Assembly: GCA_027068365.1 (NCBI GenBank)
Contig: JAMOTQ010000014.1
Coordinates: 24,001 to 58,271, forward strand
Length of the DNA stretch: 34,271 nucleotides
Direction of reading: 5' to 3'
Source: Methanocaldococcus sp.
Lineage (GTDB): Archaea > AGJL01 > Methanococci > Methanococcales > Methanocaldococcaceae
Shown here: positions 2,916 through 32,922 of the stretch, in pieces
Position numbering within the stretch: the stretch's first letter is position 1
Layout: each line of letters begins with the position of its first letter
Notes under the pieces: generated by a model
Database searches by the model: none
Told to the model about the DNA's origin: nothing
Seen by the model: the letters and a program-made list of their open reading frames with translations, nothing else
Program-made: the position numbers and the translations under genes

Positions 2916-4207
2916 GTTAAAATCAGACCGTTTCGGTATGGAAATATTCTTCCCAAGTAGGCAACTTTCTAAACACTTTAAATGTTAAAATCAGACCGTT
3001 TCGGTATGGAAATTTCATACTGGATTGATAAACACGTAGCTATGTGGCTGAAAATAGTTAAAATCAGACCGTTTCGGTATGGAAATTACTGTTTATATAA
3101 CTGGTCATCTTTTAACAGTTTTTCAATTTCAGTTAAAATCAGACCGTTTCGGTATGGAAATTACTGTTTATATAACTGGTCATCTTTTAACAGTTTTTCA
3201 ATTTCAGTTAAAATCAGACCGTTTCGGTATGGAAATTTAAGTTTTTTATTTAAGAAAAAAGTAGTGGCGGTTTTGTTAAAATCAGACCGTTTCGGTATGG
3301 AAATCATCTTCACTATCGCAATACATTGCAGGACCGGAGTATTCTAGTTAAAATCAGACCGTTTCGGTATGGAAATCTTGTTTATCTTTATCTAAAGAGA
3401 ATCTCAGAAAATACTGTTAAAATCAGACCGTTTCGGTATGGAAATATAAGCTTAAAAAGTTGAAAAAAAAGCTTTTATGTAAATTGTTAAAATCAGACCG
3501 TTTCGGTATGGAAATATAGTAATTGGAAAAGTAAATAATCAATCAAGGGAGGGTTAAAATCAGACCGTTTCGGTATGGAAATGAGTGTAAAAATTGTTTA
3601 GATAGGTTAAGAAATGATACGGGTTAAAATCAGACCGTTTCGGTATGGAAATATTTTTCAAAATCCAAGTAATTATGACCCAAATGAAGGTTAAAATCAG
3701 ACCGTTTCGGTATGGAAATAAGAAACGTCAGACTATTGGAAGATATACATATACACAGTTAAAATCAGACCGTTTCGGTATGGAAATTCTTATTTTGTAA
3801 TACAACGCTTTTAAAATCTCGTTGTTAAAATCAGACCGTTTCGGTATGGAAATTCTTATTTTGTAATACAACGCTTTTAAAATCTCGTTGTTAAAATCAG
3901 ACCGTTTCGGTATGGAAATTTATTTCTACTAACTTTACCATTTTTATCACCCGTTTTTTTGTTAAAATCAGACCGTTTCGGTATGGAAATATTATCTTTA
4001 TTCCTCCAAACAAACCTATTATATTTACTTCGTGTTAAAATCAGACCGTTTCGGTATGGAAATATATCGTGTAACTTGAATAATATATCTATTAACTCGT
4101 GTTAAAATCAGACCGTTTCGGTATGGAAATGGGAAAGCTTGTGCGGCGATAATGCTCCCAATAATGAGAGCATTATCGTTAAAATCAGACCGTTTCGGTA
4201 TGAAAAT
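2916..4207 (+). CRISPR. CRISPR array: 19 repeats of 30 nt, 18 spacers
   Basis: Repeats start at 2916, 2984, 3057, 3132, 3207, 3275, 3347, 3416, 3486, 3553, 3623, 3690, 3758, 3824, 3890, 3961, 4034, 4101 and 4178. Eighteen are identical; the last carries G to A at repeat position 26 (GTATGGAAAT becomes GTATGAAAAT), marking the leader-distal end. The repeat begins GTTAAAATCAGACC, contains the short hairpin ACCG-TTT-CGGT and ends ATGGAAAT, which would be the crRNA 5' tag after Cas6-type cleavage. Spacers are 36-47 nt. Spacers 3 and 4 (3087-3131, 3162-3206) are identical, as are spacers 13 and 14 (3788-3823, 3854-3889). There are no cas genes nearby, so processing must depend on proteins encoded elsewhere. 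The repeat closely resembles those I remember from M. jannaschii. Confidence 0.99.
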
Positions 4208-19424: not shown

Positions 19425-19562
19425 ATTAAAATTATCCCTCAATAGTTCCACTAACCATAGGGCTACCACCCTATTGGTATACCCCCTAACACCTCTCCTC
19501 GCTTATGCTCGGAGGTGTAAATTTGATAGTCATATTATTAAAATTATCCCTCAATAGTTCCA
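19425..19562. repeat. 26-bp perfect direct repeats flanking an 86-bp GC-rich insert; one copy is the 3' end of the eIF2-gamma gene
   Basis: Bases 19425-19450 and 19537-19562 are identical over 26 bp, and similarity continues for about 8 bp with one inserted base. The second copy includes the last codons and stop of eIF2-gamma (TATTGAGGGATAA on the minus strand). The first copy lies 112 bp away, in the gap before the NurA-domain gene. The arrangement looks like a gene 3' end regenerated by integration of a small element, or a 112-bp duplication later replaced. Confidence 0.9.
19454..19518 (-). ncRNA. GC-rich two-hairpin element downstream of eIF2-gamma (candidate ncRNA or mobile-element relic)
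   Basis: On the minus strand, 19518-19489 folds as ACACCTC/GAGGTGT (7 bp) around CGAGCATAAGCGAGGA, in which GAGC/GCGA could form tandem G-A pairs. Then 19478-19454 folds as ACC-(A)-ATAGGG / CCCTAT-GGT, nine pairs with one bulge and a six-base loop. The segment is far richer in G and C than the rest of the intergenic DNA, a known mark of structured RNAs in AT-rich hyperthermophiles. A T-rich stretch (TTTTAATTTTAATATTTTTTT on the minus strand, near 19411-19432) follows. No independent promoter is obvious, so it may be read as part of the eIF2-gamma 3' UTR. Confidence 0.45.
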
Positions 19563-20779
19563 TAACCAATTAACCTCCATCTTGAACCAATCCTTCTGCT
19601 TATAGCTACTCTATCTCCAATCTCAGCACATATTGGAAGTTTTAATTTTATATCTGCAATGTCCCCCCTTGCTGATGTTATAACCCCTGCGGTTGTAGCG
19701 GTTCCAATGTTTAGCATTAAAACCTCTCCCGTTCTCAGTGGTTCAATCTTCAACTCTTCCTTAGTTCCTACAACTCTATCCAACAAATTGGCTTTTATTG
19801 TTATCTTTTCTCTTATAGGAGGGAGAGTTCCTGGCAATCCCACAACACTTCCAGTTAAAGCATCTGATTTCGTTAAATATGGGTCTAATGTCGTCCCGAC
19901 TCCAATCAAACCCCCTGGATGGGCTTTCCTAATTATTGTGTTTCCAGCGGCTAATGAAACAATTTTTGTAGTTAATGGCTTCCAAAATGTTTTATTTCCT
20001 TCAGTTACTTTAATTCCTGGTCTTATCTCAATCTCATCTCCAACTTTAAACACTCCTTGAATAATTGCCCCTCCTAAAACCCCTCCTTTTAAGTCCTTAA
20101 TTTTAGTTCCTGGCTTGTTTATGTCAAAACTTCTTGCAACATACATTCTTGGAGTGGCATTAGGGTCTCTCTTAGGTGTTGGAATAAAGTCCTGTATTGC
20201 CTTTAACAAAACATCGATATTTGCTTCGTGGTGAGCTGAGATTGGAATTATTGGAGCATTTTCTGCAATAGTTCCCTTAACAAATTCTTTTATTTGCTCG
20301 TAGTTTTCTTCTGCCTGCTTTTCATCTACCAAATCAATTTTGTTTTGGACAATTATAATTTTATCAATTCCCAAAATCTCCAAAGCCATTAAATGTTCTT
20401 TTGTCTGTGGTTGAGGGCAGGGCTCATTAGCGGCTATAACCAAAATTGCCCCATCCATCAAAGAAGCCCCAGAGAGCATAGTAGCCATTAATGTTTCATG
20501 CCCTGGGGAATCAACAAAAGAGACCTTTCTCAAAAATTCTGTTTCAGCCAAACAGTTTGGACATCTTGGTTTTGTCGTGTAAGTTCCACACTGTGGGCAT
20601 TTTCTTATCTCACAGTCGGCATAACCCAATCTAATTGAAATACCTCTCCTCAACTCTTCACTATGCCTGTCAGTCCAAACTCCTGTTAATGCCTTTGTTA
20701 AACTTGTTTTTCCATGGTCAACGTGTCCAACCATTCCAATATTTACCTCTGCCTGCTTAGCTTGTTTTTTCTTTGCCAT
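19544..20779 (-). CDS. eif2g: Translation initiation factor aIF2 subunit gamma
   Basis: The 411-residue GTPase delivers initiator Met-tRNA to the small ribosomal subunit as part of the aIF2 trimer. G-motifs are [14 protein letters not shown] (18-31), DSPGHE and NKIDLV. A zinc knuckle [16 protein letters not shown] lies between the switches, as in the family. Domain II and III beta barrels follow ([33 protein letters not shown]). The start at 20779 follows AAGGGGAT. Its 3' end is duplicated 112 bp downstream. S6e lies 168 bp upstream on the same strand. Confidence 0.98.
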
Positions 20780-20947: not shown

Positions 20948-21343
20948 TTATTGTTCTTGATTTTCTCCTCCCTCCAAGCCCAACAATTCTGGAATTGATT
21001 TCTCTCCATACTCAACAACTTTAACATTAATTTGGACAATGTCTGGAGCTATTGTGTTTCCTCTAACTGTTTTTCTTCTTCTTTCTCCTTTTCTTTTTGG
21101 TCTGAATCCTGGAGGTGAGCTCAATAAAACTTTAACTTTTCTACTTCCGTGGATGTCAGGTCTCATTGGGAAACCACTTGAATCAGTTCCCCCTCTTATT
21201 TGTAATTTATAGCCATCTAAGCCCAAAATTTTACCATCAAATACTTCTCCTATTCTTTTACCAACTAATGGTGTATTATCTGCCTCAATTTGATAACATT
21301 TTCCAGTTTTTGGGTCTGCAACTACGAATTTTGCTGTTGGCAT
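20948..21343 (-). CDS. rps6e: 30S ribosomal protein S6e
   Basis: The 131-residue protein begins [20 protein letters not shown] and has GRKVGEVFDG-like and [20 protein letters not shown] segments, which are diagnostic of S6e; the basic [21 protein letters not shown] segment contacts rRNA. It ends with an acidic tail [11 protein letters not shown]. The ATG follows AGGAGGGAG. It precedes eIF2-gamma, a common archaeal arrangement. A GC-rich structured region at about 21450-21580 lies 110 bp upstream and might be its leader or a separate RNA. Confidence 0.97.
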
Positions 21344-21451
21344 TTTCTCCCTCCTAATTTATTTTTATTGTTTATTTTTAGTTTTAAAATTTTTAAATTA
21401 ACTTTTAAATTTGACAAAACAGATTTTTATTTTTAGTTTATTTTTGATTTC

Positions 21452-21580
21452 ACCCTATGCCTCCCCAGCTTCATCATTTCACAACCCCTTTGGGGTTAAA
21501 GGGGAAGGAACTCCACTGGGTCATTGACATATGTCCCAACTCCTTTTGGAGTCAGGACAATAGCAGAGTAATAGTGGGAC
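21452..21580 (-). ncRNA. GC-rich structured region upstream of S6e (candidate ncRNA or structured leader)
   Basis: Between the small zinc protein gene and S6e lies about 130 bp of unusually GC-rich sequence without an open frame of interest. Hairpins: AACCCC-TTT-GGGGTT (21483-21497), TGGG.CAT / ATG.CCCA (21517-21538), ACTCC-TTTT-GGAGT (21539-21552). CCCA at 21535-21538 can also pair with TGGG at 21575-21578, as part of GTCCCA/TGGGAC enclosing the third hairpin, so two folds compete. On the minus strand the loops become A-rich, a TATA-like CTATTTAAGTA precedes (about 21586-21596), and ATGATGA, a box C sequence, occurs near 21471-21477. I therefore favour the minus strand, but direction is uncertain. 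Confidence 0.5.
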
Positions 21581-21603
21581 ACAAATACTTAAATAGTTTT
21601 TGG

Positions 21604-21798
21604 TTATATCTTCAAAGCTATTGTGATAATATAATAGAGAAGTATAAGCCCTGCAATAGCTAAAAACATGTATTGGGTTCTTAACATCCTTTTCCTTCTT
21701 TGCATATACTCAATTCTACACTTTTCTGAACAAAAAACTTGGTCTGGGGGAATTGAGATACCACAATTTAAACAGTGTCTATGCTTTGGAATTTCCAT
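21604..21798 (-). CDS. Small zinc-ribbon plus single transmembrane protein (DUF2116-like)
   Basis: This 64-residue protein has an N-terminal zinc knuckle HCLNCGISIPPDQVFCSEKC (C9, C12, C24, C28 approximately), a basic stretch RRKRMLR and one C-terminal membrane helix (MFLAIAGLILLYYIITIAL). The topology suggests a membrane-anchored protein with the zinc part in the cytoplasm. It starts 2 bp after the UMP kinase stop, so it is cotranscribed with it. Similar small proteins are found across methanogens, with no known function. I recognise the type but not a role. Confidence 0.85.
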   Translation of the reverse strand: MEIPKHRHCLNCGISIPPDQVFCSEKCRIEYMQRRKRMLRTQYMFLAIAGLILLYYIITIALKI

Positions 21799-32811: not shown

Positions 32812-32922
32812 TGGTGGGGGTGCTGGGATTTGAACCCAGGTCCAGGGATTTCTCCTGCCGTGGTCCAGTGCCCTATAGGCAACTGGAGTCCCCGATGATA
32901 GACCTGGCTACACCACACCCCC
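32812..32922 (-). tRNA. tRNA-Trp (CCA anticodon) with a 33-nt intron after position 37
   Basis: The acceptor stem GGGGGTG (32922-32916) pairs with CACCCCC (32822-32816), followed by discriminator A and an encoded CCA (32814-32812). The T arm CCTGG-GTTCAAA-TCCCAGG-like segment is intact. The anticodon arm reads GGGGA-CT-CCA-G, interrupted by an intron at 32882-32850, then A-TCCCT. The exon-intron junctions form a strict bulge-helix-bulge: CTCC pairs with GGAG, with three-base bulges AGT and AAA and an inner helix TGCC/GGCA, so cleavage by the archaeal splicing endonuclease is expected within both bulges. At 33 nt the intron is short. Confidence 0.97.

Follow-up and report, generated by a model that had tools for sequence, protein, structure and literature searches.

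A conserved double kink-turn RNA element precedes the S6e gene in Methanocaldococcus and is a candidate protein-binding mRNA leader

The gap between a DUF2116 gene and the gene for ribosomal protein S6e in Methanocaldococcus sp. is rich in GC, which raises the question of whether it encodes a structured RNA and whether that RNA has to do with S6e. To our knowledge, few structured mRNA leaders are known in archaea, and how these organisms balance the synthesis of their ribosomal proteins is little understood. The window (the whole 34,271-nucleotide stretch of DNA that was analysed) carries on its minus strand the DUF2116 gene (21604-21798), S6e (20948-21343; PF01092, E 7.5e-46) and aIF2-gamma (19544-20779), and the region studied here is the gap between the first two. 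A sequence-only reading of this DNA had drawn attention to a GC-rich island with strong hairpins directly upstream of S6e, and both are present: GC content is 50% at 21450-21549 vs 13-32% just downstream. The strand on which that reading was made is the wrong one. Since S6e and both of its neighbours are encoded by the minus strand, that is where the RNA is to be read; this strand folds better than shuffled sequences (z -3.0). The strand used in the earlier reading folds less well relative to shuffles (z -1.7), and the sense strands of the corresponding elements in relatives give folding z values of -2.0 to -6.6.

The element found in this gap matches no catalogued RNA family. A match to the Hgc models or to other Rfam families had been raised as a possibility; none is found in the region at the gathering threshold, and a lax Rfam scan of the region returns only chance-level matches (E of at least 5). 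A tRNA and a CRISPR repeat array are the only Rfam matches in the whole window at the gathering threshold. The tRNA match (32815-32922, minus strand) is 108 nt long, was missed by ARAGORN and probably bears an intron; in the array (2916-4130, plus strand), the CRISPR-DR13 repeat is matched 18 times. The literature searched contained no account of an RNA in the S6e leader; its coverage is incomplete, so that this absence is not proof.

The whole conserved element (P1, a double kink-turn stem and a tail) is 107 nt in length and occupies 21452-21558 on the minus strand, to which all coordinates of its parts refer. The window copy scores E 3.6e-38 with covariance model R1 and E 1.2e-30 with model R2. 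Hairpin P1 is followed by a long stem, in which a middle helix, P2, lies between two facing kink-turns. In P1, the 5' strand GUCCUGACUCC (21548-21558) pairs with the 3' strand GGAGUUGGGAC (21533-21543); the helix is 98.8% paired, two-sided changes are seen in five of its 11 pairs, and step 7 is an invariant A-U pair. A U-G pair in the middle of P1 (step 5), beside a pair that is usually G-U (UCCUGAC/GUUGGGA, 21533-21558), is nearly invariant in all species. These two pairs are outside the kink-turn model and may be a second recognition site.

The bulged strand of kink-turn 1 (21521-21528, from a hand alignment) consists of C-helix bases GUC, a bulge AAU and GA, and its non-bulged strand (21459-21463) of GA followed by C-helix bases GGC; C-helix 1 is thus formed by GUC (21528-21526) and GGC (21461-21459). 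The bulge is AAU in the window copy and GAU in most relatives, and AUGA is invariant in alignment A2. P2, the NC helix common to both kink-turns, is formed by the 5' strand CCCAGU (21515-21520) and the 3' strand GCUGGG (21464-21469), and all six of its pairs change on both sides. In kink-turn 2, the non-bulged strand (21509-21514, hand alignment) is GGA followed by C-helix bases GUU, and the bulged strand (21470-21478) comprises C-helix bases AAU, a bulge GAU and GAA, with GUU (21511-21509) and AAU (21478-21476) forming C-helix 2. Here GAUGA is invariant across all aligned sequences, and the flanking helices covary. The stem is capped by P3, in which CUUCCCCUUU (21498-21507) pairs with AAAGGGGUUG (21482-21491) and all 10 pairs show two-sided changes among relatives.

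Read together, the two strands of the kink-turn region are GUC-AAU-GA-CCCAGU-GGA-GUU and AAU-GAU-GA-A-GCUGGG-GA-GGC: a 3-nt bulge and GA stand before each strand of P2, and GA follows on the other side. This sequence is that predicted for two standard kink-turns placed head-to-head, with P2 as their common NC helix and the bulges on opposite strands. Most of the sequences have the 3-nt bulge, tandem G:A and A:G pairs, and C and NC helices of a standard kink-turn; GAU-GA precedes both P2 strands, as in a two-k-turn unit, and the kink-turn loops are usually separated by 11 bp (2+6+1+2). Exceptions are kink-turn 1 of G010 (an extra nucleotide and A:A), kink-turn 2 of G002 (A:A) and the C-helix of kink-turn 2 in G005 and G009 (two mismatches). 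When the whole G007 chromosome was scanned for the head-to-head pattern with full helices, this locus and three others were found; the bulges of those three are unlike GAU, and only the S6e locus is convincing.

Support for this structure comes from covariation. The 16-sequence alignment, itself fitted to this structure, shows two-sided changes in 26 of 33 base pairs, with 96.1% of cells paired; none of 500 shuffles reaches any of five measures, and sliding the pairing partner by 1-3 columns lowers pairing to 34-57%. Because of this fitting, two independent views matter. RNAalifold applied to a plain, unfitted MAFFT alignment finds double changes in 16 of 25 pairs, and unconstrained minimum-energy folding recovers all helices in five of six single sequences, with the kink-turn bulges appearing as internal loops (in the fold of G005, C-helix 2 is redrawn). 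The exchanges in P2 (hand alignment) run from CCCAGU/GCUGGG to GAUGGC/GCCAUC, GGUAGU/ACUACU and CUUAAAU/AUUUAAG. The close genus set alone (A3) shows little covariation because its sequences are too alike. Conservation, which had been named as a check on function, is seen as an element kept across 16 genomes with covariation. A pseudoknot between the P3 loop (AACCCC, 21492-21497) and the tail (GGGU, 21452-21455) is suggestive only: complementarity recurs as ACCC/GGGU, CUCCC/GGGAG, CUCCU/AGGAG, CCCA/UGGG and CCAC/GUGG, but own-species combinations only marginally beat swapped ones (288-302 of 5040 permutations are as good).

The earlier proposal of a switching leader rested on CCCA (21535-21538) pairing with TGGG at either 21517-21520 or 21575-21578. 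The first of these pairings (in the sense strand, UGGG of the second P1 strand with CCCA of the first P2 strand) can form in most sequences, has no double changes and has a covariation score equal to that of shuffles; its bases belong to two other helices, for which covariation is seen. The second partner lies outside the element, on its upstream side, and is not kept in relatives. As the proposed pairs do not covary, a switch by mutually exclusive pairings is unsupported.

To determine the distribution of the element, S6e upstream regions were gathered by DNA search and S6e search over 41 genomes; R1 was built from ten sequences and searched against 61 genomes, and R2 was built from all 16 sequences and searched against 36 genomes of the order. 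R1 gives one strong match per genome in 16 of the 61 genomes, every one before S6e, and R2 recovers the same 16 among its 36. The carriers, which are heat-loving methane-making archaea, are all 14 of the Methanocaldococcus-genus genomes and both genomes of a second genus (G024 and G016). R1 found no element in the remaining 20 genomes of the order or in 25 genomes outside it, and in most genera of the order S6e is present but the element is not. Methanococcus- and Methanothermococcus-like S6e leaders (names inferred) show no element by the models or by eye. Two of the Methanothermococcus-like leaders (G020 and G030; L081 and L083) have another hairpin, AAAGGUGAUAACA...UGUUAUCACC, in their last ~80 bases: its 5' strand repeats the sequence of the S6e ribosome-binding site and its 3' strand could pair with that site instead, a possible decoy switch judging from these sequences.

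No convincing copies away from S6e were found in the searched genomes. R2 gives weak matches at L207 and L208 (E 0.045-0.093), of which L207 appears to be within a protein-coding stretch, and no element is present at L109 or L110. The gene upstream of the element varies: it is DUF2116 in most genomes, glnA-like in G024 and G016, another gene in G010 and G003, and a divergent gene in G002 (names other than DUF2116 were read from sequence). With one copy per genome, always before S6e, and a variable upstream gene, the earlier suggestion of a structured and probably regulatory RNA tied to S6e is upheld. The distance from the element to the S6e AUG is 20-160 nt, except for ~400 nt in G016, which has an insertion. 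This insertion (L078, ~1095-1490) adds ~300 bases between the element and S6e, is partly flanked by the inverted repeat TTAGTTGTTTGCG / CGCAAACAACTAA, and is perhaps a small mobile element.

A promoter-like BRE/TATA sequence, ACCAAAAACTATTTAAG, was identified by eye just past the DUF2116 gene (21588-21604, minus strand), and its ACCAAAAAYTATTTAA is kept in most Methanocaldococcus sequences; the transcript start is predicted at ~21566-21572, upstream of P1. In G002, the element is only 20 nt from the S6e AUG and the neighbouring gene is divergent. This gap leaves no room for a separate S6e promoter together with a Shine-Dalgarno sequence and, given the divergent neighbour and the BRE/TATA-like sequence before P1, S6e is most likely transcribed through the element.

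Downstream of the element in the window is a U-tract, CUGUUUUGUC (21413-21422, minus strand; CTRTTTT conserved), which is a candidate termination signal. In 12 genomes CURUUUU lies 18-43 nt past the end of the element, and G016 has it at a greater distance, which makes 13 of 16 in all; G004 and G011 have the related GGUUUUA or CGUUUUUA instead. None of 5000 shuffles of representative spacers is as good, for a motif that was chosen after inspection and with simple shuffles that keep base composition only. The U-tract suggests control at the level of transcription termination, and termination within operons is common in a relative, M. maripaludis (PMC10450193); that S6e is controlled in this way is a guess to which we give somewhat less than an even chance. 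The S6e Shine-Dalgarno sequence, AGGAGGGAG (21347-21355, minus strand), is ~80-150 nt beyond the element in most species. In contrast to known L7Ae leaders, the kink-turn stem does not overlap it, and no covarying pairing was found between the Shine-Dalgarno region and the P3 loop (p 0.90) or the 5' segment (p 0.33).

Conserved structure, strand, single copy and synteny with S6e are well supported, and the element shares its 5' leader position, conserved structure and synteny with ribosomal protein leaders. From these features we infer a role in cis, binding of L7Ae, and the direction and level of control: on balance, we favour a cis-acting leader of the S6e mRNA, the double kink-turn of which would be bound by L7Ae-type proteins, altering S6e output. 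Two bends ~11 bp apart would fold the stem into a horse-shoe, and L7Ae or a relative such as L30e would bind the kink-turns. Protein binding would close kink-turn 1 with its short C-helix and thereby change S6e output, perhaps by setting termination at the downstream U-tract.

Binding of the leader by L7Ae itself appears likely from its kink-turn sequences. Every kink-turn analysed folds on L7Ae (PMC6298567), and in Sulfolobus L7Ae acts as a repressor of its own mRNA and of others (PMC5539422). According to published folding rules, a Watson-Crick 3b:3n pair blocks ion-induced folding and G at 3n allows it (PMC6298567, PMC8191799). Most sequences have A:G at 3b:3n of kink-turn 2, for which folding with ions alone is thus expected. 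In kink-turn 1, the pair is C-G in G024 and the clade of the window itself, or U:U in G005 and G009, and protein should be required there; in G004 and G011 this kink-turn has U:G and may fold with ions. This difference suggests that kink-turn 1 is the regulated joint in most species. Counting against the L7Ae model are the Shine-Dalgarno sequence, which is usually far from the element and has no conserved pairing, unlike in known L7Ae leaders, as well as the C-helix mismatches of G005 and G009 and the off-consensus kink-turn 1 of G010. A more specific version, in which the horse-shoe recruits two L7Ae-family proteins and sets read-through at a U-tract terminator, would make the element a new archaeal cis-regulatory class; we consider this rather doubtful.

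Several known RNAs resemble the S6e element in part. Euryarchaeal RNase P RNA reportedly has a double kink-turn module with tandem kink-turns and L7Ae as a partner, as Lai is said to have described in 2017; its two GAUGA-like stretches appear, from sequence, to be on one strand, whereas those of the S6e element are on opposite strands. We know of the head-to-head arrangement otherwise only from designed RNA. The unit designed by Huang and Lilley (2016; PDB 4CS1, PMC5058347) likewise has two k-turns head-to-head, with a common NC helix and loops on opposite strands, and forms a horse-shoe. It has 10 bp between its loops, compared to 11 in most species for the S6e element, and it is an engineered symmetric duplex, whereas the S6e element is natural, asymmetric and located in an mRNA leader. 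The l7ae 5' leaders (Daume 2017, PMC5539422; Huang 2019, PMC6298567) also have a GAU bulge and tandem G:A pairs (PMC6298567), but are single weak kink-turns that overlap the l7ae ribosome-binding site, in contrast to a stable 107-nt element with two kink-turns that is usually far from such a site. Among the l7ae leaders inspected here (L209, L212 and L211), two from Methanocaldococcus carry GAUGAAGGAGG at the Shine-Dalgarno site and that of G024 carries AAUGAAGGAGG. Just upstream of l7ae in G007 and G010 is a hairpin, GGGCAAU..CUCCGGAUUGCCC, followed by UUUUUU, and a similar sequence is present in G024. The Bacillus subtilis rplJL leader (PMC4538822) is likewise a ribosomal protein leader with a kink-turn, and attenuation has been shown there; it differs in having a single kink-turn, in being bound by L10(L12)4, in its bacterial terminator hairpin and in its unrelated sequence.

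Autogenous control is a common rule for ribosomal protein leaders, which speaks for S6e itself as the ligand: the leader would mimic the rRNA site of S6e, and S6e, on binding it, would repress its own synthesis. The element occurs always and only before S6e, and the rplJL kink-turn leader of Bacillus is under attenuation by its own product (PMC4538822). We nevertheless regard S6e autoregulation as unlikely: a scan of the G007 chromosome for the double kink-turn pattern found no copy at the rRNA genes, the archaeal kink-turn leaders in the papers cited are bound by L7Ae-family proteins (PMC5539422, PMC6298567), and S6e occurs without the element in most genera of the order. Because kink-turns are present, L7Ae-family proteins come first as binders, ahead of S6e. 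It is also quite improbable that the element is a separate small RNA that is transcribed from a promoter of its own, ends at a U-tract terminator, acts in trans with L7Ae and just happens to be beside S6e. The promoter-like sequence just upstream, the conserved U-tract 18-43 nt downstream and, in most species, enough space ahead of S6e for a second, AT-rich promoter would suit such an RNA. Its synteny with S6e, however, outlasts changes of the upstream gene, it is never found away from S6e, and the 20-nt gap to the AUG and divergent neighbour in G002 argue against it; together with the lack of any matching Rfam model, the situation in G002 also disfavours the Hgc-like ncRNA put forward in the sequence-only reading.

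Kink-turns help to build the ligand pockets of SAM-I or lysine riboswitches, and a double bend could form such a pocket for a small molecule. Invariant bases outside the helices and the possible loop-tail pseudoknot fit this explanation, but most of the invariant bases are accounted for by kink-turn chemistry, and the only associated gene encodes a ribosomal protein rather than a metabolic one; a riboswitch is thus very improbable. A C/D or H/ACA modification guide RNA, to which the kink-turns and a box C-like UGAUGA might point, has hardly any likelihood, given no Rfam match above threshold and no conserved unpaired guide stretch. The minus-strand ATGATGA that had been noted as a box C sequence is indeed present and conserved; rather than part of a C/D guide, it is the bulged long strand of kink-turn 2. 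As a C/D box sRNA, the element was rejected on finding GGA opposite UGAUGA in most sequences and CUGA in none, and as an H/ACA sRNA on finding that the tail is GGC-AUA-GGGU-like with no conserved ACA.

As an S6e leader held by a kink-turn protein, the element is of an already known kind, that of the kink-turn ribosomal protein leaders; as far as we know, its natural head-to-head arrangement before S6e is new. If this model is correct, the element is a natural case of an RNA shape described so far as an engineered nanostructure, and it could link the supply of L7Ae, a general kink-turn protein, to the production of a small-subunit protein. Were the element to represent a new regulatory class, a large-subunit protein would govern the gene of a small-subunit protein by transcription attenuation in an archaeon. 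Being short and single-copy in Methanocaldococcus, the element is open to direct testing with purified L7Ae and S6e.
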